Shown one piece after another: positions 15,203 to 35,762 of a stretch of 35,762 nt of DNA. The notes below the pieces were generated by a model, which was given only the letters and a program-made list of their open reading frames with translations, was not told the origin of the DNA and searched no databases. The DNA comes from Planctomycetota bacterium (GTDB lineage Bacteria; Planctomycetota; Phycisphaerae; Phycisphaerales; SM1A02), in contig JACNLW010000038.1 of NCBI GenBank assembly GCA_014381305.1, positions 1-35,762 on the forward strand, in the 5' to 3' direction. Each line of letters begins with the position of its first letter. Position 1 is the stretch's first letter. The translations under genes and the position numbers were made by a program.

Positions 15203-15237
15203 TGAATCGTGTCTAATTGGGAGAAAGGTTACAACAG

Positions 15238-16722
15238 ATGAAATATGTACTGCTATCGATACTACTATTCCTCACTTCGAGTGCAACTGCTCAAAGTGGG
15301 AACCTAAGCAAAGCGACTCGACTACATCCAATACCTACAAGTATTCAAGCACCAAAGACCCTTCGTGCAACATTGCGTACTGTAGGTTCCAACTCGGAAA
15401 CACAAGCGCATGACCGAGGAGTTTGTGACTCAACACCTGTTACTTTAACTGGGCATGATTTCGGCACAGGGCAAATTACGGTTCAAGCAGGTTTTGCCGA
15501 AGGTGAAATTTTAGCTGCAACGTACGCTGTTCCCGCAGATGAGTTTCCTATCAGAGTAGATCTTGCAGAAGTCATTTTTGCAACGAGTAACACAAGTGTG
15601 CAAACGACGACACATTGGTCGGTCTACGTCTGGGATGGCACCCCAACTAACGGCACATTAGTTGCTCAATTTTCTAGCGATAATATTATTCTTCCACACT
15701 TGGTTATGCCTCCGGGAACATCTGGCACAATTATTTCTGTCTCTGTAGACCCAGATGATCCAGAACAAATTTATATCTACAATGAGAGCGGCCAAAATAG
15801 ATACACCGTTGGTTTTGGGATTGACCAACATAACAACCCTGGTAATCCTTGCGTTAGTGCTCCACCGACAAACAGCAATGCGTTTCCAACCACAGATATT
15901 GATGGGCTTCAATTTCCACAAGACAATTGGATAGATGCTGTCACGGGTACTTGGTGTGTCTGCGGAGAAGGCTGGTTTACTTTTCAAAATTTTCCAAGCA
16001 TTTGTACTCCAAGTGGTGACTGGGTTTTGCGTTCAGCGTATACACCTGTAAATTGCACGGTCGAACCAGCAGCTTGTTGTATTAATACTAAATGCTACGA
16101 TCTTTCTCCAAGTGATTGCGAAGCAATGAACGGCGTATCACAAAATCAAGGAACTGCTTGCGCAACGTATGTTTGCGGGCAAGGCGAAGGGGCTTGTTGT
16201 GTTGAGGTCACTGGCGCATGCGTAGACTTTGATGTAAACGATTGTTACGCTGTAGGTGGAATTCATATGGGCGAGGGCACGATGTGTGCAGATATCACTT
16301 GTTTCCCAGAAGGAGCTTGCTGTCTCGCAAATGGCAATTGCATTGGACCCGTTTCACCAACAGACTGTACAGCCGTCGGTGGTGCTTTCCAAGGGAATGC
16401 AACTTCGTGTAGTTCGGCAAATTGCCCCCAACCGCTCGGGGCTTGCTGCGGATCTAGCTTTTGCTTAGATTTAACAGAAGATGAATGTGTTGCTGTTGCT
16501 GGACAATGGTCTGGAATGAATACCTCATGCGATGATCCAACGACTTGTGGTGTTGATTGCCCCGAAGACATTGATAACGATGGTGTAATTGATGTGAATG
16601 ATCTTCTTGCTATTGTCGGTGGGTGGGGAACTTCTGACCCTGACCTTGACGTAGATGGAAACGGTGTTGTCAACACTGATGACCTACTCGCAGTGATCGC
16701 TGCATGGGGTACTTGCGAGTAA
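15238..16722 (+). CDS. Secreted protein with four six-Cys repeats and a C-terminal dockerin-like domain
   Basis: This 494-aa exported protein has a signal peptide at 1-18 (cleavage likely after ATA), an N-terminal beta-rich region (about 60-275) of unknown fold, and then four repeats of about 40 residues beginning at paired cysteines 280-281, 320-321, 361-362 and 403-404. Each repeat has six Cys in the order CC-x4-6-C-x7-8-C-x13-C-x4-5-C. The C-terminus (441-494) has two calcium-loop motifs, DIDNDGVIDVNDLLAI and DVDGNGVVNTDDLLAV, each ending in a WG, like type I dockerin. Start ATG 15238 has GAGAAAGG (15221-15228) upstream. Such domains are common in planctomycete exported proteins. The partner and function are unknown, and no cohesin is in the window. 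Confidence 0.85.
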   Translation: MKYVLLSILLFLTSSATAQSGNLSKATRLHPIPTSIQAPKTLRATLRTVGSNSETQAHDRGVCDSTPVTLTGHDFGTGQITVQAGFAEGEILAATYAVPADEFPIRVDLAEVIFATSNTSVQTTTHWSVYVWDGTPTNGTLVAQFSSDNIILPHLVMPPGTSGTIISVSVDPDDPEQIYIYNESGQNRYTVGFGIDQHNNPGNPCVSAPPTNSNAFPTTDIDGLQFPQDNWIDAVTGTWCVCGEGWFTFQNFPSICTPSGDWVLRSAYTPVNCTVEPAACCINTKCYDLSPSDCEAMNGVSQNQGTACATYVCGQGEGACCVEVTGACVDFDVNDCYAVGGIHMGEGTMCADITCFPEGACCLANGNCIGPVSPTDCTAVGGAFQGNATSCSSANCPQPLGACCGSSFCLDLTEDECVAVAGQWSGMNTSCDDPTTCGVDCPEDIDNDGVIDVNDLLAIVGGWGTSDPDLDVDGNGVVNTDDLLAVIAAWGTCE

Positions 16723-17144: not shown

Positions 17145-19136
17145 TCACTGGCGCTTCATAGTACCTGTCACTTCGCGATCCCCAGTGACACCTTCTTTGG
17201 CAGCACGTTCCTGCGCGAGCTTTTTTCTCCATGCATCTAAACCAGGCGGTTCAGGGAACGCAACACTAATTGGCGTATTTTTACTCATTGGGTGCTTGAG
17301 ATACTGATCCTGAATGACTGGCATAACGCGATCGTACACTCTTGGGCGTAGCCCCTGCTCTAGTGCATCAATTCCAGCCCAGATCACAATACGCTCTTCC
17401 ATCGGAATCATAGAATCAGTCATAACTTGTTGGAATGAAAGTTGTGCGCTATCTTCCAATGCGCCAATAATATCTTTGATTCTACCAGTACCGAATTTTG
17501 TAGTGTAATTATTAAAATCGTTTGCTTTGAAGAATTCAGTTACTTGTTTAGCAAAAAGTAAAGCGTCTTTGTATAACTCTGGACGTTTTTGGGCTACGCC
17601 TGCTCTGAATGCGTATCGCAAAGATGCAGCAACGTCACTCACGGCAAGCAATGGTTGTCGATCATATTCACCCTGCGTCTTGTTCTTTACCCAGATATCG
17701 AGTGGTACCGCATAAGAATTATTAGGCGGCGACGCCCCACTACCAAAGTATTCATCTAAATGATCAAGTAACGCTTGGGCTCGATCTAATTCACCTTGTC
17801 TATACCACTCACGAACTGCAGAACCTAAAAAGTTCTTTAAGAACGAAGTAAATGTGTCACTGCCAGCACCTCTTACAAAATAATGCTTTTTGTAGAGTTC
17901 ATCCCAAAGACCGTCTCGTTGATCATCACCAATAATTGCGTCAATAAACCTTGGGTCTGGGAATCGTCCTGGAACTTCGTTTGAAAATGGATCAAAAGAA
18001 ATGCGTCCTGTTCTTGCAAGTGACTGAAGTGCGTGAAGTTGCATTCGATCTGTGTTAAGGGTTTTAAAAATATCATTGGAATCATGCCTCCCCTTGCCTA
18101 CATTTGCGCCGCGTCTTGCCCAGTACAACGCATGCGTTTGGGGATGACGCCAGTCAAGTGGTCCTAAATCACGTGTGTACGCATACATCAGATCTGGATC
18201 CATGTTGTACTCTTCACGCAAAATTTTATTTCGTAAATGTTTGAGTAAGACTGGCCACGCTTTTTCATACGCAGGGTCAAGAATAATTGCTTCGATTGCG
18301 TTGTAATATGGAGACTCTGATCGCAGTGCTTGCTCCAAACCAAGTGTTCTTGCAACCATAGAATATTGAGAAATTGCTTTATGTTGCGCGATGTCTTCAA
18401 GTAGTCCAAAACCAATTGGGGATTCGCCCTGCCCTCGGTATGCACCAAGATCTTCCGTGAGTTGATCGATAAGTGGAGCAACAGATGGTTCTAGCAAAAT
18501 AGCATCTTCAATCGTCCTAGGAGCATCTGCAATGGCCTTCATTGCGGCAGTTCGATCATCCCAACTTTCAGGGGGAGTTCCTAAAAGAGTATTCCATTCG
18601 TCTGCAAGCAGGCGTTTGTAATACAAGTGCGCGTCGTCACTATTTCCATCGATCTTATGTCCAAAGAAAAAAGACAACTCTTTATGCAAAACCATATCGT
18701 CAGGATTCGCTACGAGACCTTTTTCTCGAAGCAACCGAATACCTGCATTGACCCATTCCCATCGCTCTTCTAATGTGTTTGTTGCGACTGAAATGTTATA
18801 TGCCATATTGTGCGCATGAAACACCCAGACTTGAGAAAATCGAGGTTGCAGTTTAGTAATTAATTCAGCGTCAGCCATCACTTCGTAAAACAATCCCGCA
18901 TCTTTCATGCGGTTAATTTTTATCCAAAGATAGTCAACCATTAATCCTCGCAACGCACCTATTGACATTCCCAAAGTGTTTACCCAATCAGGCGCACCTT
19001 CGACGGAATTATTTGAGTAACGAAGCGTACTTTGTTCCGCGTCTTTAATGATTGCGGGTAACATTGCACCGCCAAAAGCCATTGAAACAAGTGCAATTCC
19101 ACCAGCAGTGAATTGTATGATTCGGTCACGCTTCAT
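17145..19136 (-). CDS. Large membrane-anchored protein of unknown function (last gene of SPFH/ABC operon)
   Basis: This is a 663-aa protein that I do not recognise. It has an N-terminal hydrophobic anchor (about residues 6-30), then a long soluble, mostly helical region rich in Trp, Tyr and Asp/Glu, likely outside the cytoplasm. Helical segments such as WVFHAHNMAYNISV...EERWEWVNAGIRLLREKG suggest a TPR-like solenoid, but I cannot assign repeats with confidence. The tail is polar and charged. ATG 19136 is chosen because GGAG lies 8 bases upstream. A GTG at 19145 overlaps the permease stop and is too close to that ribosome site. The gap to the permease is one base, so it is almost certainly translated with the exporter, perhaps as its extracytoplasmic partner. 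Confidence 0.8.
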   Translation of the reverse strand: MKRDRIIQFTAGGIALVSMAFGGAMLPAIIKDAEQSTLRYSNNSVEGAPDWVNTLGMSIGALRGLMVDYLWIKINRMKDAGLFYEVMADAELITKLQPRFSQVWVFHAHNMAYNISVATNTLEERWEWVNAGIRLLREKGLVANPDDMVLHKELSFFFGHKIDGNSDDAHLYYKRLLADEWNTLLGTPPESWDDRTAAMKAIADAPRTIEDAILLEPSVAPLIDQLTEDLGAYRGQGESPIGFGLLEDIAQHKAISQYSMVARTLGLEQALRSESPYYNAIEAIILDPAYEKAWPVLLKHLRNKILREEYNMDPDLMYAYTRDLGPLDWRHPQTHALYWARRGANVGKGRHDSNDIFKTLNTDRMQLHALQSLARTGRISFDPFSNEVPGRFPDPRFIDAIIGDDQRDGLWDELYKKHYFVRGAGSDTFTSFLKNFLGSAVREWYRQGELDRAQALLDHLDEYFGSGASPPNNSYAVPLDIWVKNKTQGEYDRQPLLAVSDVAASLRYAFRAGVAQKRPELYKDALLFAKQVTEFFKANDFNNYTTKFGTGRIKDIIGALEDSAQLSFQQVMTDSMIPMEERIVIWAGIDALEQGLRPRVYDRVMPVIQDQYLKHPMSKNTPISVAFPEPPGLDAWRKKLAQERAAKEGVTGDREVTGTMKRQ

Positions 19137-19137
19137 A

Positions 19138-21195
19138 TCACCCACTCCCGCTATAAATTGCGAGTTGGCGTTTTCTTAGAACGAAAGTACCGATTGTGAT
19201 TGCAAATCCCGACCAAAGAATGCCTATGGTGACAAACCCTTGGATGACCGATCCCCACGAGATATACAATCCTTGCACCAATTGACTTGTGGGCTGCTGA
19301 TCGCCAAAACCACGGAGCATGAAGACGAGGAAAGATGCTATTCCTCGAATCGTATTTTCAAACCCCCATTGGATAACCATTCCAAGATCACGAAAATCAA
19401 CATCACTCGTGACAGGAGGTAAGTACATTTGAAGTGATTCAGCGAGCCATGGCGCCATGAGACCACTGGCAAAAACAGTAAATGTAACGAGCGTCGCGAC
19501 TGAAAAACTGAGAAACGTTGCAACAGAAAGACCAATAGCAGCGAGAAACGCTAATTTAATCCACAAGACAATAATCGCGCGCAGGAAGTTAGGCTCAAAA
19601 TCACCCACTCGATAAAGCATCTTAATTCCATCAGCATCAAAACTAATTGAACCCCGCCCTTCCTTTCCAGGAGGAGGTTGATAAAAGTTATAAATCGATA
19701 CGGTAAGAACGCCTTCATCATTTACAAAAGAAGAAGGAATGAGCGTAACGTGTGTCATTGTTGGGACAAATTTAATATTCTGTCTTGTAGCAGGATCTTG
19801 GTTAAAAACGAATCCTGCTTCGTGCACTTCATGTTCATTTGAATCCAAAATATGAAATCTATATTGAAATGCGATTGGGGCACCAACTTTTTTAGCCTCT
19901 TGAAGATCTGTAAATGTATATGTCTGTTGGTAATAACTGCCTTGATGCGCGGGAGGAATTGATCTCTGGCTAGCGAGATATTGTTCTTGCACTTCACTCC
20001 GGATCTTCCGGCGAAGTGGGATTTGAATTTGTTCCATGTCACGCAAGTCAGAATCCGCTTCTACGATTGCATCAACTCTGGCACTTAACTGCTGAGAATC
20101 TAACTCAAGGTATACGGGCTCGGCAGTTCGTCTAGCAGTAAGTACTTCCTCTTCTACTGCGAGGCGATCAAGTTCTCCTTGCATCCCAGAAGCAACTGGT
20201 TGTGCTCGAAGATACTGGATGTAGATAAAAATACTCAAGCCTGCTATGCACAAGATAGTTGCATTCAAAGAAACAATACCAAGCCACTTCCCAAGTAGAT
20301 ACCCTAATTTGTTCACCGGTTTCGTCATGACTTGCCAGACTTGACGGTCGCGTATTTCAAATGCAACAGTTGCACATGAAAGCAAAACCGTGAGGCATGC
20401 TGAAATTGCAAATGTAATTCCAAGGCTCCTACTTAGCATCGTTTGCAATTGATGTCTTAAAGGCGAGGCAGGATCTAACCAGTAAGGAATCAGTGGAAGA
20501 AGAATTAAAAGCAATGCAATAAATGCGAGTGAGAGCCGAGTTCTTGATGCCTCAAGCAAAAGCCCTTTTGCAATTGTAGGGATCTGTTTTGGTGATCCAA
20601 ACAGCAATTCCAAAATGCGGAGCAAAAGTGCACATGTAAATGCTAACAAACCAATTGCTGCAACAGCAAGAGAAAGTCCTGGCATACCAAACATACGAAA
20701 AAGAAACCAAGAAAATGTAGAACCAATAGTTGCATAGAGCAACGGAGTGAGCAGACCTAGCCAGACAGAGGAGACTCCCCAAGCAAGTGCAATGATTGCA
20801 ATAATCCAAGTTGTTCCGAGACTCCGAAGCATCCAGTTTGGGAGCCATGGTGGGATCTCAGTTGAGATTAAATACCAAGTAACAGAAGTTGGATCAGTAA
20901 CAACCCCATTTTCATCGAGGACCTGAAACCCTTTCAATCGTTCATGCCCAATTTTGCGATCTTTAACTGTGATAAAACCGCTCTCTTGCAATTGCTCTCC
21001 AACGAGCCTTTGGTTCGTACCCGTTAGTGCTTCTTCTATCGCAGTACGGTCGCTGTGTAATCGATGACTGACTTGCAGTACAGGTGCAAGGGAACCTGCG
21101 ACGCCGCTAACGATGAGGACTGTCGCGATGATTTTAACAACTAGCCGCAGTTGTGTTCGCATCATCCAGAGATGTATATTCTTTATTACGTTCAC
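19138..21195 (-). CDS. ABC-2 type permease with large extracytoplasmic insert
   Basis: This is a 685-aa polytopic protein of the ABC-2 exporter class. It starts with one membrane segment (about 20-42), then a soluble stretch, then several more segments (about 128-205 and 220-325). A soluble insert of about 215 residues (about 330-545) follows, and the protein ends with further membrane segments. The cytoplasmic motif EIRDRQVWQVMTKPVNKLGYL followed by LGKWLG is typical of NosY-like ABC-2 permeases and recurs in the divergent permease at 27058. The start is GTG 21195, overlapping the ATPase stop (GTGA), with AAGG 6 bases upstream. The partner is the ATPase encoded just before it. The substrate is unknown. 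Confidence 0.82.
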   Translation of the reverse strand: MNVIKNIHLWMMRTQLRLVVKIIATVLIVSGVAGSLAPVLQVSHRLHSDRTAIEEALTGTNQRLVGEQLQESGFITVKDRKIGHERLKGFQVLDENGVVTDPTSVTWYLISTEIPPWLPNWMLRSLGTTWIIAIIALAWGVSSVWLGLLTPLLYATIGSTFSWFLFRMFGMPGLSLAVAAIGLLAFTCALLLRILELLFGSPKQIPTIAKGLLLEASRTRLSLAFIALLLILLPLIPYWLDPASPLRHQLQTMLSRSLGITFAISACLTVLLSCATVAFEIRDRQVWQVMTKPVNKLGYLLGKWLGIVSLNATILCIAGLSIFIYIQYLRAQPVASGMQGELDRLAVEEEVLTARRTAEPVYLELDSQQLSARVDAIVEADSDLRDMEQIQIPLRRKIRSEVQEQYLASQRSIPPAHQGSYYQQTYTFTDLQEAKKVGAPIAFQYRFHILDSNEHEVHEAGFVFNQDPATRQNIKFVPTMTHVTLIPSSFVNDEGVLTVSIYNFYQPPPGKEGRGSISFDADGIKMLYRVGDFEPNFLRAIIVLWIKLAFLAAIGLSVATFLSFSVATLVTFTVFASGLMAPWLAESLQMYLPPVTSDVDFRDLGMVIQWGFENTIRGIASFLVFMLRGFGDQQPTSQLVQGLYISWGSVIQGFVTIGILWSGFAITIGTFVLRKRQLAIYSGSG

Positions 21196-22373
21196 TTATC
21201 GCCTTGAGTCTGATCAGTCTGATCATCTAAAAGAGAATCTATCATTGAAGAGTCAGCGCCTTTTGGAACATCTAATTCCGACTTCGCTTCTTGCACTAAG
21301 TTATCTTGTTTCTTGTCTTTTACAAGTTCATCGAGCACTTCAGTATTTTCTAGTATGTCAGGTGTGGAAGCATGTTCTTCAACAAGAGGTACTTCGTTCT
21401 TCTCTTGCAAAAGTTGATCAATGAGGACTTCGCCTTTGGCATCACGACGAAGAAATGATGCAGTTTCCCCACCATGAAGTGCGCCGCTTGTTGCAGCCTG
21501 TTCAAGTTTTGCTTTTTCAACTATTGAAAGGAAGAGTGATTCAAGTTTCTGCCTTGGTTGCGTGACTGATTCAATAGAAACGCCTTCCGTTTGCATTAAG
21601 ACATCTTCTATTTTAGTAATTGTTTCATCGCTTTTAATTCTAGGAATTTGCAATACTGTATGGGATGAATCGGTGAGCAGTTCGTCCGCAGTCCCCTCTG
21701 CGCGAATTCTTCCACCATAGAGAATTGCCATTCGATCACAAACATCTTCTACATCTGCAAGCAAGTGAGAACTTAGGAGAATGGTTTTTCCTCGTGATCG
21801 TAGTTCAAGGAGAAGATCCTTGACTTGTTTTGTGCCGATCGGATCAAGGCCACTTGTTGGTTCATCTAAAATGAGAAAATCGGGATCATTGATTAACGCT
21901 TGCGCTAAACCAATACGACGCATCATTCCTTTGGAGAATTCGCCCACTGGCCTATGTGCTACTTGTGAAAGCCCAACCCAATCGAGAAGTTCGTCAATAC
22001 GTTTCCGACGAGTGGCACGTTCGAGTCCAAACAGGCGACCATAATAATCAAGCGTTTCTCTAGAGTTTAGATATCGATAAAGATACGATTCTTCAGGGAG
22101 AAAACCAATATATTTTTTTACTGAAACATCGTGCGGGTTGCGATCAAAAACTGTTAACCGCCCTCTCGTTCTATTGAGTAACCCAAGGATCAATTTGATT
22201 GTTGTACTTTTCCCTGAGCCGTTTGGACCAAGCAGGCCGAACAGCTCGCCCTTTTCGATATGAAAAGAAAGATTATCGACAGCTTTCGCTTTTGAACGCA
22301 TCCAAAAATCTTTGAAGATTTTCGTTAGCCCTACCGCTTCTACAATGTAATGCGAGTTTGTGTTACTTGCCAT
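21192..22373 (-). CDS. ABC transporter ATP-binding protein with acidic C-terminal tail
   Basis: This 393-aa cytoplasmic ATPase energises an ABC-2 exporter. It shows Walker A GPNGSGKS (49-56), a Q-loop region near FLPEES (91-96), signature FSKGM (146-150, a variant of LSGGQ common in exporter ATPases), Walker B FLILDEP (166-172) and the switch histidine His203 (SSHLL). The normal domain ends near residue 245. A further 150 residues are predominantly acidic and polar, with repeated EE/DE and Lys, which is long for this family. It overlaps the permease start by 4 bases and follows the HflK-like gene by 11 bases. By position it drives the permease next to it and perhaps the divergent one. Confidence 0.92.
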   Translation of the reverse strand: MASNTNSHYIVEAVGLTKIFKDFWMRSKAKAVDNLSFHIEKGELFGLLGPNGSGKSTTIKLILGLLNRTRGRLTVFDRNPHDVSVKKYIGFLPEESYLYRYLNSRETLDYYGRLFGLERATRRKRIDELLDWVGLSQVAHRPVGEFSKGMMRRIGLAQALINDPDFLILDEPTSGLDPIGTKQVKDLLLELRSRGKTILLSSHLLADVEDVCDRMAILYGGRIRAEGTADELLTDSSHTVLQIPRIKSDETITKIEDVLMQTEGVSIESVTQPRQKLESLFLSIVEKAKLEQAATSGALHGGETASFLRRDAKGEVLIDQLLQEKNEVPLVEEHASTPDILENTEVLDELVKDKKQDNLVQEAKSELDVPKGADSSMIDSLLDDQTDQTQGDK

Positions 22374-22384
22374 AGATCAATTCT

Positions 22385-23794
22385 TTACCTTTGCTTGCCT
22401 CTTACACTTCCCGTACCAATTGATAGTTCGCGAGAAGGACCATATTGATCAATTTCTTTTGCCTTTAGTATCCATGGATTAAAAATGTCAATGTCTTTCA
22501 ACAATGCTTTCATTTCGCGCCGTTCCATATTCAGTCGACTGCGGAGTTGCGCAACTTGATCAGAACCTCGGAGACCTATTTTCATCGCGGCAAGTTGACT
22601 TGGTACGAACATCGTTTCTACATCTGCTGTTCCAAGAACTTCAGAATACGCCGCAATCCACCGATCTCGAATCACGATGGTTGGGTGTTCTAGATATGCT
22701 GGCAAGAGGCTTTCGAATCGTCTGTAATCTCGACCAAGCGTAGTCTCAACCTCTGATCTATACCCTTCAGCTTTACTAATTGTGTTTGCAGCGGATCCGG
22801 CAATTTTATCTGACTGTAGCATTGTGTTGATTGAATCGAGTGCATTTTGCTGGGCACTCAAATCGGAATGGTCAACAACTTCTTCGTAGGACTGGATGAG
22901 CGAAACAAGTGTTGGGTAATCACGACCTGCTGATTCAATGAGCATTTCATGTGCTTCAGCAACAGCGCGTTCTACTTCCGTTTCAGAGTTAATCTTTGCG
23001 CTGTCAAACTCACTGTAAGACTTTTGGATAAAGAATGGAGGTTCAGGTTCATGTGGAAGCGTAACGTCAGCAATACGAATACCGCAATCAAGAACATTCA
23101 ACTGCTTTTGTGTTTCAAGCCGAATTACATCTCGAAGTTGTTCAAGGGGCTCATCGAGCAATTGTTCTAATTCGAGCGTTGCTACGACATGCACTGCTGC
23201 ACGTTCAAGAGTAAGACCAACAAGAATATTGCCATAAGAATCAGGAACTGAATCTGCGTATTTAACAGGTTCGATAATTTCCCATGTAGCAGCAAGTTCA
23301 AGGTGCGCTACGTCGCCATCGCTTGTCAAAAGAGAACCATCACGACCGGGAGCGAGGCCATCTTTTGACCTCGCTTTTGAAATCCTTTGCTCACGTGAAA
23401 TGTTCGGGTTGATTTGAGGCATAAACACATTACCAATTGCAACGAATCGATTTTCAGCTTCAAAAATTTCAAAACCACCAATTGGAGACGGCCAACTCAT
23501 TTGGAGTCCTGGAATCAATCCTTTGTCATCTTTAACTGCGCCAAAAACTGTTGCAACTCCAGTTTCACCTTCGTCAACAGTTCTAAAACCTGAGACAAGG
23601 TATAAACCGATGAGTACAAACATCACAACTTGCAGTGCTCTGAAACTAAGTTGGAGAGAATCAGACAAGGAGCGGTGTGCCGTATCCATTGCTTCCCGCA
23701 TGTCCGTGCCAGAATCGTCCTTATTGATCATATAACGAGCAGACGCAGCACGTCGTGGCAGTTCTTCTGGGATTCGATCTTTATGGTCGTCCAC
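22385..23794 (-). CDS. HflK-like SPFH protein
   Basis: This 469-aa membrane-anchored SPFH (band 7/prohibitin) protein has a cytoplasmic N-terminus, one membrane segment (about 52-70), the SPFH domain (about 70-270) starting RTVDEGETGVATVFGAV, and a long coiled-coil C-terminal part (about 280-450). In E. coli HflK and HflC form a cage around the FtsH protease; whether that applies here is unknown, as no ftsH is in the window. The start is GTG 23794, sharing one base with the hflC-like TAG stop (TAGTG) and with AGGTG 8 bases upstream. An ATG at residue 22 is less likely. The one-base overlap implies balanced production with the HflC-like partner. Confidence 0.85.
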   Translation of the reverse strand: MDDHKDRIPEELPRRAASARYMINKDDSGTDMREAMDTAHRSLSDSLQLSFRALQVVMFVLIGLYLVSGFRTVDEGETGVATVFGAVKDDKGLIPGLQMSWPSPIGGFEIFEAENRFVAIGNVFMPQINPNISREQRISKARSKDGLAPGRDGSLLTSDGDVAHLELAATWEIIEPVKYADSVPDSYGNILVGLTLERAAVHVVATLELEQLLDEPLEQLRDVIRLETQKQLNVLDCGIRIADVTLPHEPEPPFFIQKSYSEFDSAKINSETEVERAVAEAHEMLIESAGRDYPTLVSLIQSYEEVVDHSDLSAQQNALDSINTMLQSDKIAGSAANTISKAEGYRSEVETTLGRDYRRFESLLPAYLEHPTIVIRDRWIAAYSEVLGTADVETMFVPSQLAAMKIGLRGSDQVAQLRSRLNMERREMKALLKDIDIFNPWILKAKEIDQYGPSRELSIGTGSVRGKQR

Positions 23795-24726
23795 TATTTT
23801 TTCACCTTACTATCAGTGCTTGCTGGTTGGGGAATGCCACTTGAGTCAATTTCCGTATTAAGATCGAGTAAATGCCAAGGTGCGAGATTTGTTTCCAATA
23901 CAAGTGTAGTGTTTTGGGAAAGTGCGATTTCAACTGCATCTAGCCACGAAAGAAAGACAGCAAGTTCTTCGTATTCACCCATTTTTTCGAGGTACGTCGC
24001 GGCTTGCTTTTCACCTTCGGCTCGGATGTCCTCGGCGCGTTGTGACGCAAATGCTTCAATTTTGTCACGCTTGGCACGTGCATCGGCGCGAATGGCTTCG
24101 GCATCAGCCCTGCCCTTTGTTCGTAGTTGATCAGCAAGTGTATCTCTGCGTGCTTGCATGCGTTCAAGAACAGCAGTTGTAGTTTTTGGGGGGAGAAGCA
24201 AGCGGTTAATTCCAACTGTGCGAGGAATGATCCCACTTTCCTTGAGCGTATCTAATCGGCTGAGGATTGCTTGCTCCGCTTGAGGCAACGTATTGTTGAT
24301 ACCAGTTAAACTTTCAAAGGAGTAACTACTTAACACAGAAATTGCGTCACGGAATTGACTGTCTATTGCAAGTTGCGCAGCTTCGACCGAAGAATAACTT
24401 CGATAAAAGCGAAGCGGTCCCTCTCCTTCTGTATCTATACTCCAAAGGAGATAGGACTTTACAACAATCTGCTGCCCGTCCTTGGTTTGGAGCATTTCTA
24501 ATGGTGATTGCCGCACTTGGGTCCGAGTGTCGAGTAACGTAACTGCGTCAGCAAAGAATGGAAGTCTAAAGTGCAAACCGGGTGTTGAAACAACACTGTT
24601 CGCATCTGTTTGACCGAATCTACTTAAGATTCCTACTTGGTGAAACGACACTGTAAATGTCATGCTAAACAATAACAAGATGACAAAAATGGCAATGCCA
24701 ATGCCGATGATGAATATGCGCTTCAT
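23794..24726 (-). CDS. HflC-like SPFH protein
   Basis: This 310-aa protein has one N-terminal membrane segment (about 4-24) followed by the SPFH domain (about 25-190; FHQVGILSRFGQ ... TPGLHFRLPF) and an alanine- and charge-rich coiled coil (about 195-265: RADAEAIRADARAKRDKIEA) typical of HflC. Its length matches the family. Start ATG 24726 is 3 bases after the polytopic SPFH gene stop, with GGAG 11 bases upstream. Together with its downstream partner it likely forms a hetero-oligomeric ring or cage. The ABC genes downstream make a role in organising an exporter possible, but this is inference. Confidence 0.87.
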   Translation of the reverse strand: MKRIFIIGIGIAIFVILLLFSMTFTVSFHQVGILSRFGQTDANSVVSTPGLHFRLPFFADAVTLLDTRTQVRQSPLEMLQTKDGQQIVVKSYLLWSIDTEGEGPLRFYRSYSSVEAAQLAIDSQFRDAISVLSSYSFESLTGINNTLPQAEQAILSRLDTLKESGIIPRTVGINRLLLPPKTTTAVLERMQARRDTLADQLRTKGRADAEAIRADARAKRDKIEAFASQRAEDIRAEGEKQAATYLEKMGEYEELAVFLSWLDAVEIALSQNTTLVLETNLAPWHLLDLNTEIDSSGIPQPASTDSKVKK

Positions 24727-24729
24727 TTG

Positions 24730-26841
24730 TTAGTTTGCTCCTTGGTCAACTTCAATTGACTCACTGAAATTCAAAAGTGGATTGATTGTTTGCAATTCCA
24801 AATCGATGTTTACTCGATTTGGATCTATACCAACAATATATTTTCTGAGTTGTGGAAGTCTTCTTGCGAGGACTGCCATGTACGTTCTCTGCCGATAAAT
24901 CTCTGGGGATGCTTCGTAGGCAGTAATTTGACCTCGGACTTTACTCGCCCGTGATCTTGCATTAAGCATCTCTACCCATCGCGTGACATGCGCGTTGTCT
25001 ATTCGGATCGATGCCGCGCCATTACCTTTTCGCAAAAGAGACATTGCATTCGTTTCTTTAGAATCCATAGTAACAAGTGCACTTTGTATCTCTTCATCTG
25101 ATGCATTTGCGACTCTTAATGCATCCCATTTACTTCGAGTGGCGTTGTACGCGTCGACAGCTTCAATTACAGCGTCAACGAGTGCGCCATCGCCAACAGA
25201 GTACGTAAGAATATTATCTGCCCATCCCTGAGCAGCTGAAATAAGTCTAGATTCTGCTTGGCGGGAGACAGACACGCCTTCGAAAGTTGCCCTGTCTCCA
25301 CTTGCTGGTTTCAAAAAAGGTAACGTGAGAGAAACAATTTCAACACCTGTTCCAAACGAATCGAATTTCGCTTGTAATTCAGTAGTCACTTCTGTTGTGA
25401 AGTTCGCACGATCACTACTGATAATTTCCTCTAATGTTTTTGTTTGTAACATCGTTGTAAGTGATTGTTGCGCAATTGCGAGTAGCCCGATTTCTCGTTG
25501 CGTTCTCTGTGACCGGCGTTCAATTGCGTCGGAACCAAATGTGAGCCAGTCAAGCAAGCCATCTTGAGAGATTCTGTATTGAAGCACCGCTCTGACATCG
25601 AGGAGTGCAAGTACATCTTCCGATCCCCCTTCTTCAGCATTTGAGGAACCTGTCACTATGAATGGTTTTGGTTTTGTAACGGTCAAAGTTTGGAGACTAT
25701 CACTCCAAAGGTACACAGGGCGTTCTTCTTTCCAATCAAAGGTGAGGGACAATTCTCGCATCCGACTGACGTCTTCAATTACTTCAGATTCAATCGGCCA
25801 TGGGAGTTTCCACATTAAACCAGGACCGTGAACGTCTCCAACAATCGCACCTTGCCGCAATCGAACTGCTTGCTGCGTTGGCTCGACAATTACCATCGTA
25901 TCTACAGCGAGCAATGCAATGATTGCGAGCGCGATGAGCCAAGCAAAAGATCGGAGCAGGAGTTGGTATCCCCAAGAACTGGTTATATCAAAGCCAAATT
26001 GATAATTGATCGCTTCATTGATTGATCGAACAAATGAATCTGGTGCAGCTAGAAGGCTAAGCGTTTTTGAATCAAACGCTGGGCGGGGAAGTTGCCCAGC
26101 AATTCGTGGTCGGTAGAGATTCAGTGCGAAATTGATAAGAATTTCTACACATACGGCAATCATAAAGACTGGAATTGCCCAGCAAACCCAAACTAATACT
26201 GCATCGTTATCAAAAAAACGAAAAACCAAACCCACAGCGATTGCTGAGAGCAAGATTGTGTTGCCAACCATCCAACTCGAACCGCCTCGCAGATTTGTCC
26301 AGTTTGGAACTTTCGCCATGCCCGCAACAAAACGAGAGAAGATAAATCCGGTGAGTCCCAAGGCGAGTGAAATCGCAAGTGCCCACCCCGTCAGAGAAGT
26401 GAGGTGTAAACTTGTCCTCAATGTGTCGTCTGGTGATTCTAAGAGCCTTAGATGTCCAATGAGCAAATACGCTGTAAAGGCTAACAACAATGCCAAAATC
26501 ACACTCACGGAAGGCATCACCCATTTGTGAAGCAGTTTCAAGCGTTTTGCTGCTGGTCGTATATTTTCTCCAGCACCATCAAACATCGACGCATTTGTAT
26601 CGATTGAAAGTTCAGACTCTTCTAATGCTTCAAGTCGTTCCAACTTTTGTTGGTAGTAGAGAACCAAAATGCCAACCCAGACGACGACTCCGATCCAAAC
26701 CCACAGAGAGGCAAAAATGAAAGAAGTATCTTTCGCAAGAAGTCCGAAGATGAGGAGAATGGCTGCGATTAAGATTTGCAGCAACAGTCCACTTCCAGCG
26801 GTGGAAGCTGCTTTTTGGCAGGCTTGATGATCTACTCTCAT
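24730..26841 (-). CDS. Polytopic membrane protein with C-terminal SPFH domain
   Basis: This 703-aa protein is unusual for the SPFH class. It has about six membrane segments (18-36, 40-63, 108-130, 150-172, 190-210, 214-240), then a seventh (298-316) that directly precedes an SPFH domain. That domain opens DTMVIVEPTQQAVRLRQGAIV and is followed by HGPGLMWKLPWPIE, the HflK-like pattern, with a helical C-terminal region (about 470-690). Ordinary HflK has one segment. It is the first gene of the six-gene operon and starts 216 bases from the divergent permease. ATG 26841 has no clear ribosome site, and an in-frame stop lies just upstream, so no other start is available. The function is unknown. Confidence 0.82.
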   Translation of the reverse strand: MRVDHQACQKAASTAGSGLLLQILIAAILLIFGLLAKDTSFIFASLWVWIGVVVWVGILVLYYQQKLERLEALEESELSIDTNASMFDGAGENIRPAAKRLKLLHKWVMPSVSVILALLLAFTAYLLIGHLRLLESPDDTLRTSLHLTSLTGWALAISLALGLTGFIFSRFVAGMAKVPNWTNLRGGSSWMVGNTILLSAIAVGLVFRFFDNDAVLVWVCWAIPVFMIAVCVEILINFALNLYRPRIAGQLPRPAFDSKTLSLLAAPDSFVRSINEAINYQFGFDITSSWGYQLLLRSFAWLIALAIIALLAVDTMVIVEPTQQAVRLRQGAIVGDVHGPGLMWKLPWPIESEVIEDVSRMRELSLTFDWKEERPVYLWSDSLQTLTVTKPKPFIVTGSSNAEEGGSEDVLALLDVRAVLQYRISQDGLLDWLTFGSDAIERRSQRTQREIGLLAIAQQSLTTMLQTKTLEEIISSDRANFTTEVTTELQAKFDSFGTGVEIVSLTLPFLKPASGDRATFEGVSVSRQAESRLISAAQGWADNILTYSVGDGALVDAVIEAVDAYNATRSKWDALRVANASDEEIQSALVTMDSKETNAMSLLRKGNGAASIRIDNAHVTRWVEMLNARSRASKVRGQITAYEASPEIYRQRTYMAVLARRLPQLRKYIVGIDPNRVNIDLELQTINPLLNFSESIEVDQGAN

Positions 26842-27057
26842 GTTAAAGGTGTTTTCTCATTGATCTTGTGATAAAGTTGGTCGTTATGAAGGGTGATAAA
26901 CTAAAATTATTGATCTGTTTTACAGATTTAGGAGATGATCTGAGGGCTCTCAGAATACGATTACGAACCTTTGCTTAAATACGTTCGTCATAAGGCGAGA
27001 AGATTATCATGAACTGCCCTATCCTGCCCCCTTTTACACTCTATATTTGAGATATCA
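26842..27057. promoter_or_regulatory. Divergent control region of the SPFH operon and second permease
   Basis: These 216 bases should hold promoters for both directions. I see two short inverted repeats near the middle: ATCTGT-TTT-ACAGAT (26913-26927) and CTGAG-GGCT-CTCAG (26940-26953). They are the right size for operator or small hairpin elements. No -35/-10 pair is strong enough to name. A shared operator would tie the two transcripts together, but this is only inferred from the layout. Confidence 0.4.
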
Positions 27058-28197
27058 ATGTTCTACCAGACCCTATCAATCGCTCGAAATGCCTTTTTTG
27101 AGAGTATTCGCCAGCCAGTACTCCTCGTCCTCGTCCTTGCAGGGATGCTCCTTCTGATGCTTTCCAATCCTCTATCAGCTTTTACGATGGATGATGACCA
27201 GCGGATGCTTCTTGATATTGGACTCGCGACGGTATTTACAATCGGAATTCTCATTGCGTCATTTGTCGCAAGCAATGTCCTTGGAAGAGAAGTAGAAAAT
27301 AAAACCGCCCTCACAGTAGTTTCGAAACCAGTACCAAGACCCGCATTTGTGATTGGAAAATTTGTAGGAGTTGGACTTGCTATTTCAATTTCGATGTTAC
27401 TTCTTAGTCTTGTATTCGTCATGGTTGAACAGCAGGCAGTCTTACAAACTGTACGTACACCTATTCACGTACCCGTTGTCGTATTCGGAACAATTGCATT
27501 GCTTGTTGGCACGGCGGTTGCAGTTTGGTGTAATTATTTTTACGGATTTGTATTTTCAAGTACATGGCTTTGTGTCACCGTTCCGAGCATGCTCATAGCG
27601 TACATTCTTGTTCTCAATTTTGGTGCAGATTTTTCTACGCAACCAGTGAGCTTTTCTTTCCGTCCAGAAATTTGGAAAGCGTTATTAGCGATACAAATTT
27701 CGGTGCTCATTCTAGCGAGTATTGCAATTGCACTTTCGACGAGACTAAAACAATTAGGAACTCTATCATTTACTTTTATAATTTTCTTCATTGGTATGAT
27801 GTCCGATGCATGGTTCGGATATCCAATTGATCAAATTGAAAGTGCTTGGCTCGATCGTGCGTCGAAGGATGGCAAAGTACAAATCGTCGAGCAAGTTCGG
27901 ATTATGGAAAAAATAAATGGAGACATTGAGGAAGTCACAACTGAATCAGAAGAAGTACTCTCAGGCACTTCTCTTTCCTCCTACGCAATTGGTGCAGAAT
28001 ATTCAAAATGGGCTGCATACAATGTTGGGCAAGCAATTGTTCCTAATTTTCAAGTGCTTTGGCTCACGGATGCGTTAACACAAGACAATATTATTCCACC
28101 CAAGTATTTGTTACGAACTACTGGCTACGGCATGTTATATATTGTCGCGGCAGTTTCATTGGGAATAGTTCTTTTTCAACGAAAAGAAGTTGCCTGA
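27058..28197 (+). CDS. ABC-2 type permease (second, divergent)
   Basis: This is a 379-aa integral membrane protein with about six to seven segments (about 20-40, 58-78, 105-128, 138-162, 172-190, 215-235, and one near the C-terminus). It carries the cytoplasmic motif EVENKTALTVVSKPVPRPAFV followed by IGKFVG, which parallels EIRDRQ...KPV...LGKWLG in the permease at 19138-21195. No ATPase gene is beside it on this strand. The nearest is 21192-22373 on the other, so sharing that ATPase is plausible. The ribosome site is weak (GAGA before ATG 27058). uvrA follows 8 bases downstream and is probably co-transcribed, although the functions appear unrelated. Confidence 0.83.
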   Translation: MFYQTLSIARNAFFESIRQPVLLVLVLAGMLLLMLSNPLSAFTMDDDQRMLLDIGLATVFTIGILIASFVASNVLGREVENKTALTVVSKPVPRPAFVIGKFVGVGLAISISMLLLSLVFVMVEQQAVLQTVRTPIHVPVVVFGTIALLVGTAVAVWCNYFYGFVFSSTWLCVTVPSMLIAYILVLNFGADFSTQPVSFSFRPEIWKALLAIQISVLILASIAIALSTRLKQLGTLSFTFIIFFIGMMSDAWFGYPIDQIESAWLDRASKDGKVQIVEQVRIMEKINGDIEEVTTESEEVLSGTSLSSYAIGAEYSKWAAYNVGQAIVPNFQVLWLTDALTQDNIIPPKYLLRTTGYGMLYIVAAVSLGIVLFQRKEVA

Positions 28198-33451: not shown

Positions 33452-35762
33452 ATGTCTACCCTTCGAACGATCTGTACAGTTATCGCTACTTTTGGCATGG
33501 TTGCTGGAATTGCATACGCAGCGCCCCAAGCGAAAAAAATAACCAAAAGAACAACAATGCGAATCGGATCACCAAACCATGGTGCAGCTACTCGCGGCGC
33601 TGGCATTACGATGTGTGATCCCGCTGACATACTTGTATCTGAAAGTTTGGATATGGCAACGATCACACCCGGCAATTCAGTCAATTGTTTTGGTGGGAGT
33701 GGCACTCCTGAACATCGGTACGGCAGAAGCCATGATCTTTCACTTGGAAATACAGCCGGACTTCCTTGGGAAATTACTTGTATTCACTTTGGACTTGCAC
33801 AAAACTCCGTAGCGGGTACAGCAACTGTAAATGTTTATATAGATCAAGACGGTGTTGCAGGCCCAACTGCTGATGGCAGCGATCTCTGGCTGATCGGCAC
33901 AGTTGAAAAACCAATTCCTGTAACGAACACGCCAGTCATGATTACAGCCTCTCCGGTTACACCTTACCCTCTCAACCCTGATGCTTTGATCTTCATTGAA
34001 ATTGTCATCCCCGAAAGTTTCCCTGGAACACACGAAATTGGCAGCAACGCTGCAGGTGAAGCATCTATCAGTTGGATTCGAACAACAAATGGTGAATGTG
34101 GCATTGGTTCGTGGACAAATCCTTCAGCACTTGGTTTCCCTGATATGCATATTCTTGAAGCAATTGAAATCGCTCCTGCGACGATTGCGGATCCATGTGA
34201 TGACCCCCTTCCAACTTGTGCATCTGACATTGATGGCAGCGGGAGCGTTACAGTAGATGATCTCCTTGCAGTCATCGGTGCGTGGGGCCAATGTGGAGAT
34301 GGCACATTCCGCCCCGCTGGCGATGTCGCCCCACTTCCAAATGGTGACTGCTGCGTTGACGTGAACGACGTGTTGCAAATTATTAGTGATTTTGCCTTCG
34401 AATGTGGCGGCGGCGGTGTTGAGGGCTTGGGCATCAACGAAGTTCGTATTGACCACAGTGGCGTTGACGACAACGAATATGCTGAACTCATTGGGCCAGC
34501 AGGAACAGTCCTCGATGGCTACTCTTATATTGTTATAGGTGATGGAACGGGCGGTTCTGGTGTTCTTGAAACGATCATTGACCTCACCGGTTTGATGATT
34601 GCAGAAGATGGCTTCCTATCCCTTGGTAAAGCCGAAATGACAATTGCAACTCCGGACGTCATTATTGATGGACTGAACTTTGAAAACTCCGACAATGTGA
34701 CACACTTACTCGTGTTTGGACTCACAGCCGTACTTGATCAGGATCTGGATATTGAAGACGATGGTGTGCTCGATGGTTCGTTCTGGGCTGAAGAAGTCGA
34801 TAGTTTCTCCCTCCTTGAAATTGGCTATGACGGTGAAGTCCTTGACTTACTGTATTCAGACACAGTACTTGGTCCAGTTGGCGATTACGTTCCTGCACAT
34901 GTTTTCCGTTGTCCAGATGCTGGCGATTGGAACTTAGGTGTTTGGGGTGATCTTGCGTTAGATACGCCAGGTGAACCAAATATGTGTGATCTCGCTGACC
35001 TTGATGAAGACGGTGTATTTGATCTTGTCGACAACTGTTACCTCTACAACCCAGATCAAACCGATTGCAACTCCAACGGAGTTGGCGATGTTTGCGATAT
35101 TGCTGAGGGAGTTTCACAAGATTGCAACGGGAACGGTATCCCTGATGAATGCGAAGCGGATTGTGATGGCAATGGAATCCCTGACGAGTGCGACATCGCT
35201 GATGGCGCTGCTGACTGTGATGGGAATGGTATCCCAGATGTTTGTGAAGCAGACTGCAACGAAAATGGGATTGGCGATGCTTGTGATATTGCTGACGGCA
35301 CTTCGTTAGACGACAACGGCAACGGTGTCCCTGATGAATGTGAAGTTGGTAATCTTCTTTATACGAGTTTCGAAGAACCGCTTACTGGTGGACAATATGT
35401 CGACCTTGGTGATGCCGCAGTTGATCATCAACTTTTCAATAACGCTGGGGAAGCAATGGTTGAATGGGCTGCTACTGGTGCCGAAATGGGATTCACTGCT
35501 TGGTATCTGAACACTCGTGGTAGTGTTGGATTAACCGACGGTGATTACGTCGGCGTAACCGACTACACAGGCGGGGGTGTTGGGGCATATCCAGATGGGG
35601 GCCAAGGCTACCAAAGGAGCGGCTGTGATGGACTGATGCGGGGCGGTTTTGACACCGCAACTGGCAGCGGGGCTTGGGATGTTAGTTTAGACCGGTTCAT
35701 CGCGAGTACAGGGTGGGAAGCCCGTGACGCGGGCGGCCTTGATAATATTTGGTATGGCGGGG
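33452..35762 (+). CDS. Large secreted multidomain protein, 3' end cut by window
   Basis: The frame is open from ATG 33452 to the window end (770 codons, no stop), with AAGGAG (33439-33444) 7 bases upstream. It has a signal peptide (1-23, cleavage after AYA) and an N-terminal beta-rich region (about 55-245). A dockerin-like pair in mid-protein (258 to about 320) reads DIDGSGSVTVDDLLAVIGAWG, then GDCCVDVNDVLQIISDF. A stretch beginning INEVRIDHSG...EYAELIGP (about 328 on) resembles lamin-tail-like domains. Residues 538-631 are calcium-type repeats of the form DCNGNGIPDECE, six times, in units of about 13 and 19 residues. A Gly-rich region follows to the edge. Likely cell-surface or exported. Enzymatic function, if any, is not visible and may lie beyond the window. 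Confidence 0.85.
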   Translation, partial: MSTLRTICTVIATFGMVAGIAYAAPQAKKITKRTTMRIGSPNHGAATRGAGITMCDPADILVSESLDMATITPGNSVNCFGGSGTPEHRYGRSHDLSLGNTAGLPWEITCIHFGLAQNSVAGTATVNVYIDQDGVAGPTADGSDLWLIGTVEKPIPVTNTPVMITASPVTPYPLNPDALIFIEIVIPESFPGTHEIGSNAAGEASISWIRTTNGECGIGSWTNPSALGFPDMHILEAIEIAPATIADPCDDPLPTCASDIDGSGSVTVDDLLAVIGAWGQCGDGTFRPAGDVAPLPNGDCCVDVNDVLQIISDFAFECGGGGVEGLGINEVRIDHSGVDDNEYAELIGPAGTVLDGYSYIVIGDGTGGSGVLETIIDLTGLMIAEDGFLSLGKAEMTIATPDVIIDGLNFENSDNVTHLLVFGLTAVLDQDLDIEDDGVLDGSFWAEEVDSFSLLEIGYDGEVLDLLYSDTVLGPVGDYVPAHVFRCPDAGDWNLGVWGDLALDTPGEPNMCDLADLDEDGVFDLVDNCYLYNPDQTDCNSNGVGDVCDIAEGVSQDCNGNGIPDECEADCDGNGIPDECDIADGAADCDGNGIPDVCEADCNENGIGDACDIADGTSLDDNGNGVPDECEVGNLLYTSFEEPLTGGQYVDLGDAAVDHQLFNNAGEAMVEWAATGAEMGFTAWYLNTRGSVGLTDGDYVGVTDYTGGGVGAYPDGGQGYQRSGCDGLMRGGFDTATGSGAWDVSLDRFIASTGWEARDAGGLDNIWYGG

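Follow-up and report, generated by a model that had tools for sequence, protein, structure and literature searches.

A planctomycete HflK-like SPFH protein with a predicted CDF-like membrane domain, encoded among transporter genes

Why would an HflK-like protein carry six membrane segments ahead of its anchor? The question is raised by a 35,762 nt stretch of planctomycete DNA (contig JACNLW010000038.1, assembly GCA_014381305.1, Planctomycetota bacterium, Phycisphaerales; SM1A02), which in its entirety is called the window here, and by its gene A, a 703 aa open reading frame from ATG (24730..26841, minus strand). HflK and HflC form a hetero-oligomeric cage, and the contents and purpose of bacterial SPFH cages are largely open; the gene A fusion names concrete, testable candidate contents. 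While SPFH cages, CDF folds and the neighbourhood of HmtA are already known, we found no description of a CDF-like domain fused to an HflK-like protein in a literature on SPFH/HflK with CDF, P-type ATPases or planctomycetes that consisted mostly of titles and abstracts and included few subscription journals.

Architecture of the gene A protein

A sequence-only reading of this DNA had proposed that gene A differs from ordinary HflK, with its single anchor, by about six additional segments, and both parts of that proposal hold. Hydropathy places segments at residues 18-36, 42-60, 111-129, 150-168, 192-210 and 214-232 and an anchor at 301-319, and the AlphaFold2 model of the N-terminal region agrees, with helices at 2-36, 39-81, 96-135, 151-175, 184-208, 214-243 and 290-314. 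By the same hydropathy method E. coli HflK has one segment (80-98), against seven in gene A. Of 20 relatives' rows, 13 represent the correct reading frame, and all 13 keep the seven segments, one of them with a weak eighth inside its SPFH part. Gene A is neither a chance fusion nor a frameshift, since the whole protein used as query finds a match, mostly near full length, in 59 of 61 related genomes.

From the N-terminus, the protein comprises a CDF-like six-helix membrane domain (residues 5-248, 26098..26829, recognized from the AlphaFold2 model, comparison with PDB structures and an hhalign match to a CDF profile); a linker (249-300, 25942..26097) with a conserved YQFGF (280-284) and W290, which would be cytosolic if the N-terminus is inside; an HflK-type membrane anchor (301-319, 25885..25941, from hydropathy and the model); an SPFH/Band_7 domain (318-515, 25297..25890); and HflK-type C-terminal helices (517-661, 24859..25293, from the full-length model and structure comparison), all on the minus strand. 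Band_7 scores 42.9 bits on residues 318-515 (cut-off 23.6), which makes gene A a member of the SPFH superfamily, and HflK (7vhq_E) matches there with an E value of 5.1e-11. The N-terminus and loops 61-110, 169-191 and 233-300 hold 2, 7, 3 and 6 lysines and arginines, whereas the loops on the opposite side hold 1, 2 and 0. This charge pattern fits an N-in topology with the SPFH domain outside, with the caveat that the inner loops are also longer.

A CDF-like fold ahead of the anchor

The sequence-only reading recognized no family in the extra membrane part. At the level of Pfam and NCBIfam this stands, as no family exceeds its cut-off over the N-terminal region of the window protein; structure and profile comparison, however, lead to the fold of the CDF/ZnT/YiiP transporters. 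We modelled residues 1-325 with AlphaFold2 on a 66-row alignment (the window plus 65 of 76 candidates drawn from 80 loci, after filters for length, score and 80% identity), obtaining a pLDDT of 88.7 and a pTM of 0.82. In the full-length model (pLDDT 84.0, pTM 0.54, so that the domain arrangement is uncertain), residues 5-248 give the same CDF match and residues 298-671 match HflK. The top Foldseek matches among solved structures were CDF zinc and manganese transporters, with probability near 1 and E values of 0.03-0.1, none of the CDF entries falling below 0.001. VIA-align superposed YiiP (8f6k) with Z 19.3 and rmsd 3.0 over 205 residues, a score to be read against the best Z of 14 that mostly helical models typically reach. 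Ranks 1-32 were all CDF (Z 19.3 to 9.2), followed in the list shown by an unrelated row at Z 7.3; the comparison covers the families present in the VIA-align structure lists.

Profile comparison points the same way. Against 21 CDF sequences, hhalign with three overlapping alignments returned E values of 4.2e-6, 1.1e-6 and 2.1e-7 (Prob 86.9, 91.0 and 93.6%), with 189-191 columns aligned collinearly across TM1-TM6. Controls stayed lower: among 60 block-shuffled alignments the top value was 25.3%, among 60 locally shuffled ones 4.5%, and reversal gave 0.2%. Seven other families of the locus scored at most 3.5%. In Pfam, Cation_efflux matches 11 of the 66 members weakly (best E 1.4e-4) and the window protein not at all, and the surely spurious Caveolin family weakly matches 24 of the 66 (best E 0.0028), which is a warning on the Cation_efflux hits. 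Taken together, the predicted model has the six-helix CDF membrane fold, and the N-terminal region very probably is a CDF homologue. Searching PDB sequences with the N-terminal profile brought up nothing but weak matches to the GABA-B receptor (E 0.13 or worse), which we rejected.

The likeness might instead be convergent, the six helices being an independent bundle that acts as a broad anchor, fences a lipid patch inside the SPFH ring and has no tie to metals. Helical bundles can reach high Z scores by common arrangement, the Foldseek E values lie above 0.03, and we find below both the lack of a metal site and copies of gene A that stand alone. Nonetheless, we consider convergence unlikely: only CDF structures exceed Z 7.3 in the list shown, the collinear TM1-TM6 profile alignment beats 121 scrambled controls, and the locus is linked to a heavy-metal ATPase.

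Loss of the CDF metal site

CDF metal site A is formed by residues that we take to be D45, D49, H153 and D157 of FieF. In the hhalign alignment these fall on W47, G51, S188 and V192 of gene A. Among 145 unique rows, which include two of the four proteobacterial proteins described below, D, E, H or C occupies the four columns in 24, 3, 0 and 0 cases, and no row has all four ligands together. By comparison, the 21 CDF sequences keep D157 without exception and mostly have D or H at the other positions (deviations are E in six at 45, N in four at 49 and V in four at 153). The C-terminal cytoplasmic domain of CDF proteins is likewise absent from the models after TM6, where short helices, linker, anchor and SPFH domain follow instead. 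Since the four ligands never occur together in 145 sequences, classical transport is improbable, and the membrane domain is best described, from its sequence, as a degenerate CDF domain. Of the earlier suggestion of a channel-like or scaffold module, the channel-like half is not supported, the metal site being lost, while the scaffold half may hold.

Other positions are strongly conserved: E71, F87, E233, P245, S258, YQFGF 280-284 and W290 are invariant or nearly so, with all 145 unique rows carrying Glu at position 233 in TM6 (codon 26143..26145, minus strand). Mean pairwise identity among 69 sequences is 33% in the N-terminal part versus 26% in the SPFH half. We also observed that no genome of the window's genus (0/13, G000-G012) has a Cation_efflux match, versus 19 of 41 genomes in that search. 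These data bear on the reading that the domain is an active cation transporter working through another site, for example around E233, with the SPFH ring regulating or sorting it. The CDF fold, the universal E233, the nearly invariant E71, the better conservation of the membrane part and the want of a Cation_efflux match across the 13 genomes of the genus all speak for it, but the site A columns are without ligands and the CDF cytoplasmic domain is missing, and we doubt that such a transporter exists here.

Distribution of the fusion

The fusion forms a conserved family. When the N-terminal 314 residues alone were the query, 54 of the phylum's 294 genomes gave a match, a minimum given that a single sequence was used. 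A profile of 28 N-terminal regions found one in 58 of 145 genomes of the phylum to which the genome with locus L208 belongs; because that genome's record bears the title Verrucomicrobia subdivision 3, we label the group the inferred Verrucomicrobiota. A scan of named genome contigs gave at least 566 relatives; of the 80 that we kept, 75 are titled planctomycetes, four just 'bacterium' and one Verrucomicrobia. No clear stand-alone copy of the N-terminal domain was seen among the sampled genomes of the phylum and of the inferred Verrucomicrobiota. Short frames in the phylum search comprised one of 184 aa in G041, where the gene is split across two contigs, and two of 195 and 133 aa in G226 and G163, where the remainder of the gene lies in a neighbouring frame; in the inferred Verrucomicrobiota the shortest frame with the N-terminal region was 428 aa. 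The extra region is thus common in HflK-like proteins of planctomycetes and, in divergent form, on proteobacterial plasmids; annotated it is not, and we found no known role for it.

The operon and its neighbours

Gene A is the first of six minus-strand genes, A to F, in which each overlaps the next slightly or is separated from it by no more than 11 bases. Gene B (23794..24726, 310 aa) encodes an HflC-like SPFH protein with one membrane segment that scores 107.9 bits with hflC, itself below the cut-off of 134.4, and gene C (22385..23794, 469 aa) a third SPFH protein, also with one segment (Band_7, 36 bits). These are followed by gene D (21192..22373), an ABC transporter ATPase by family profile matches; gene E (19138..21195, 685 aa), which is permease-like, the window copy having no family and its relatives matching ABC-2 families, one over cut-off; and gene F (17145..19145, 666 aa), for which the window copy has no family and one relative a weak TPR match. 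Gene G (27058..28197, plus strand, 379 aa), a divergent ABC-2-type permease at 27.0 bits, just under the cut-off of 27.2, starts 216 bases from gene A and lies beside it in most relatives. Two large proteins with dockerin- or calcium-binding-like repeats (DxDxDGxxDVNDLL type, from the translations) are encoded elsewhere in the window, at 15217-16722 and 33452-35761.

For the window's taxonomic order we compared 37 loci, one set drawn from 37 of the 59 matching genomes, and A-F follow each other in 35 of them; the exceptions are L045, which is cut by a contig end, and L042, which shows only A-B-C. All such tallies are lower bounds, as contigs end inside loci. Linkage of this kind supports a shared function. 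Elsewhere gene A stands without B, C, ATPase or ABC genes alongside in two of 35 loci of a phylum-wide sample (L120, L121; two others of that sample, L135 and L136, belong to the window's order) and in five of 20 loci of the inferred Verrucomicrobiota (L294-L296, L299, L300), so its protein can occur without the usual genes, or at least without them adjacent. A DEAD-box helicase gene neighbours gene A in L296, L299 and L300, and FKBP and DUF2059 genes lie near it in L120 and L121.

The stretch that separates genes A and G contains an inverted repeat, ACGAAC-N14-GTTCGT (26963-26988), and the word GATTATCATGA (27002-27012); for each, about 0.04 chance occurrences are expected in the window. Seven loci were aligned and judged by eye: the four from the genus all keep the repeat and the word, the other three do not. 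The two elements are perhaps an operator or promoter of the divergent genes. Alignment of the seven intergenic regions, in which we sought a metal-regulator box, gave just this repeat and no box that we recognized.

Gene A could also be an ordinary HflK that modulates FtsH, its extra membrane part a passive addition. In structure comparison its SPFH half is closest to HflK, an HflC-like gene is adjacent, and the window's genome has one FtsH over cut-off and no SPFH genes that we saw beyond the three of the locus, although others could be missed: a Band_7 genome search reported two places and overlooked gene C (22385-23794), found by a protein scan with Band_7 at E 9.2e-9, so that such genome counts are minima. 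However, gene A reaches only 65.9 bits with the HflK equivalog TIGR01933 (cut-off 159.4) and has seven segments where HflK has a single N-terminal anchor. With the extra part being the better conserved half, and the operon partners being transporters, a plain HflK seems improbable.

Linkage to P1B-type ATPases

A heavy-metal ATPase often accompanies the locus. We counted any P1B-type ATPase of at least 150 bits inside the fetched stretch. As minima, nine of the 37 loci from the window's order have one, as do 29 of 35 in the phylum sample, 61 of the 80 on named contigs and 13 of the 20 from the inferred Verrucomicrobiota; in other lineages it lies between C and D or beyond G. The window itself has none, and thus lacks the ATPase adjacency of an HmtA-type cluster. 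Its genome, though, has two P1B ATPases over cut-off, and the one on contig C96 (L252, 4421-6448) scores 654 bits with a profile of the locus type; the genome's other P1B ATPase reaches 345, and two P1B ATPases from relatives reach 358 and 396. In a tree, the C96 ATPase groups first with five relatives' copies that lie away from their SPFH genes and next with SPFH-adjacent copies from three further loci in the order, both groupings having support 1.0. Type and clade together imply that the ATPase link is old and that in the window's family the gene moved rather than vanished. The CPx motif of the C96 ATPase reads TCPGG, whereas CPC is the usual form among 107 aligned ATPases; judging by this motif, its choice of metal may have changed.

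Related clusters in Proteobacteria

Two planctomycete N-terminal regions found no match on plasmids by tblastn, but a full-length planctomycete query found 17 plasmid records. We examined five, two of them without annotation in the region. In each of the three annotated regions, from Paraburkholderia sprentiae, Rhizobium tumorigenes and Burkholderia ubonensis, four genes stand in a row: one for a 'protease modulator HflK' of 606-672 aa, a further two of SPFH type and one for a P-type ATPase. Three of four such HflK proteins have six plus one segments and one (L242) has six in all. As a group, the four N-terminal regions match planctomycete profiles with E values of 1.4e-8 and 1.4e-12, over the part from TM4 through the anchor; compared with the CDF profile directly, they give no match (0.2%).

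PaFlo5-7 of Pseudomonas aeruginosa presumably correspond to PA2437-PA2439. According to two papers, PA2434-PA2439 join the importer HmtA to HflK/HflC-family genes; the cluster has a weak putative Zur site, its transcript levels go up when znuA is mutated, and its proteins increase under zinc depletion, while another transcriptome cited there has hmtA unchanged (PMC4542158, PMC11761036). Deleting the paFlo5-6-7 triple operon is reported to have only minor consequences: biofilm was reduced by about 20%, and virulence in Galleria was partly lost (PMC13086221).

A model for the locus

What, then, might the six segments be for? We give about an even chance to the following reading: gene A would encode an HflK-type SPFH subunit behind a degenerate CDF domain, with the operon's other two SPFH proteins, the HflC-like one and the third, as partners, and the three would build a hetero-oligomeric periplasmic cage by analogy with HflK and HflC. 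Each copy of the gene A protein would contribute a six-helix bundle to the membrane where the cage has its base, and the bundles, their CDF metal site lost, would make up a ring on which the co-encoded transporters dock and pack, namely the heavy-metal P1B ATPase (on another contig in the window's genome) and the ABC-2-type exporter. The fusion itself, the match in fold, the missing site A and the linkage among the genes are computed results. We infer assembly and docking by analogy, from HflK/HflC and from stomatin, solved together with aquaporin 1 according to a PDB entry title; a role in metal handling is a further part of the proposal.

The reading draws on the CDF match of the model, hhalign scores above controls, the weak Cation_efflux matches in 11 of 66 members, A-F synteny, linkage to P1B ATPases including the locus-type enzyme on C96, the SPFH triple with an ATPase on proteobacterial plasmids and the reported response of the P. 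aeruginosa HmtA cluster to zinc depletion. Several results weigh against it: Foldseek E values of only 0.03-0.1, the Z of 14 open to helical models, the low pTM of the full-length model, a window protein without a Pfam CDF match in a family hit more often by Caveolin than by Cation_efflux, proteobacterial regions without a direct CDF match, solo copies of gene A, an ATPase unlinked in the window and the slight effect reported for deleting the triple SPFH operon in P. aeruginosa.

A more ambitious version, which we hold only tentatively and think less probable, is that these proteins form SPFH cages of a class of their own, into which a ring of pseudo-transporter bundles derived from CDF is built. 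Such a cage would close off a periplasmic space where a P1B metal ATPase works, joined in planctomycetes and relatives by an ABC-2-type exporter, and the bundles would sense or pass on metal or gate access to that space. More generally, a protein that unites an SPFH domain with a zinc-transporter fold would account for some 300 unannotated residues in proteins named just 'protease modulator HflK', and may show what the SPFH genes in the zinc-responsive Pseudomonas HmtA cluster are for.

Comparison with known systems

Three known systems resemble parts of the locus. First, the HmtA cluster of Pseudomonas and the plasmid clusters of Burkholderiaceae and Rhizobium share HflK-like, HflC-like and SPFH genes with a P-type ATPase. 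The plasmid clusters differ in a very divergent membrane part and in having no ABC or TPR genes alongside in the three annotated regions. Second, CDF/SLC30 transporters (YiiP/FieF, ZnT1, ZnT3, SLC30A10) share the predicted six-helix fold of residues 5-248 and a weak but controlled profile similarity, whereas gene A is without site A and has linker, anchor and SPFH domain in place of the cytoplasmic CDF domain. Finally, HflK of the FtsH-HflK/C complex (PDB 7vhq, 9cz2, 7wi3) resembles gene A in its anchor, SPFH domain and C-terminal helices and in the HflC-like gene next to it, while gene A stands apart in its six extra segments, its score below the equivalog cut-off and an operon that adds a third SPFH gene and transporter genes.
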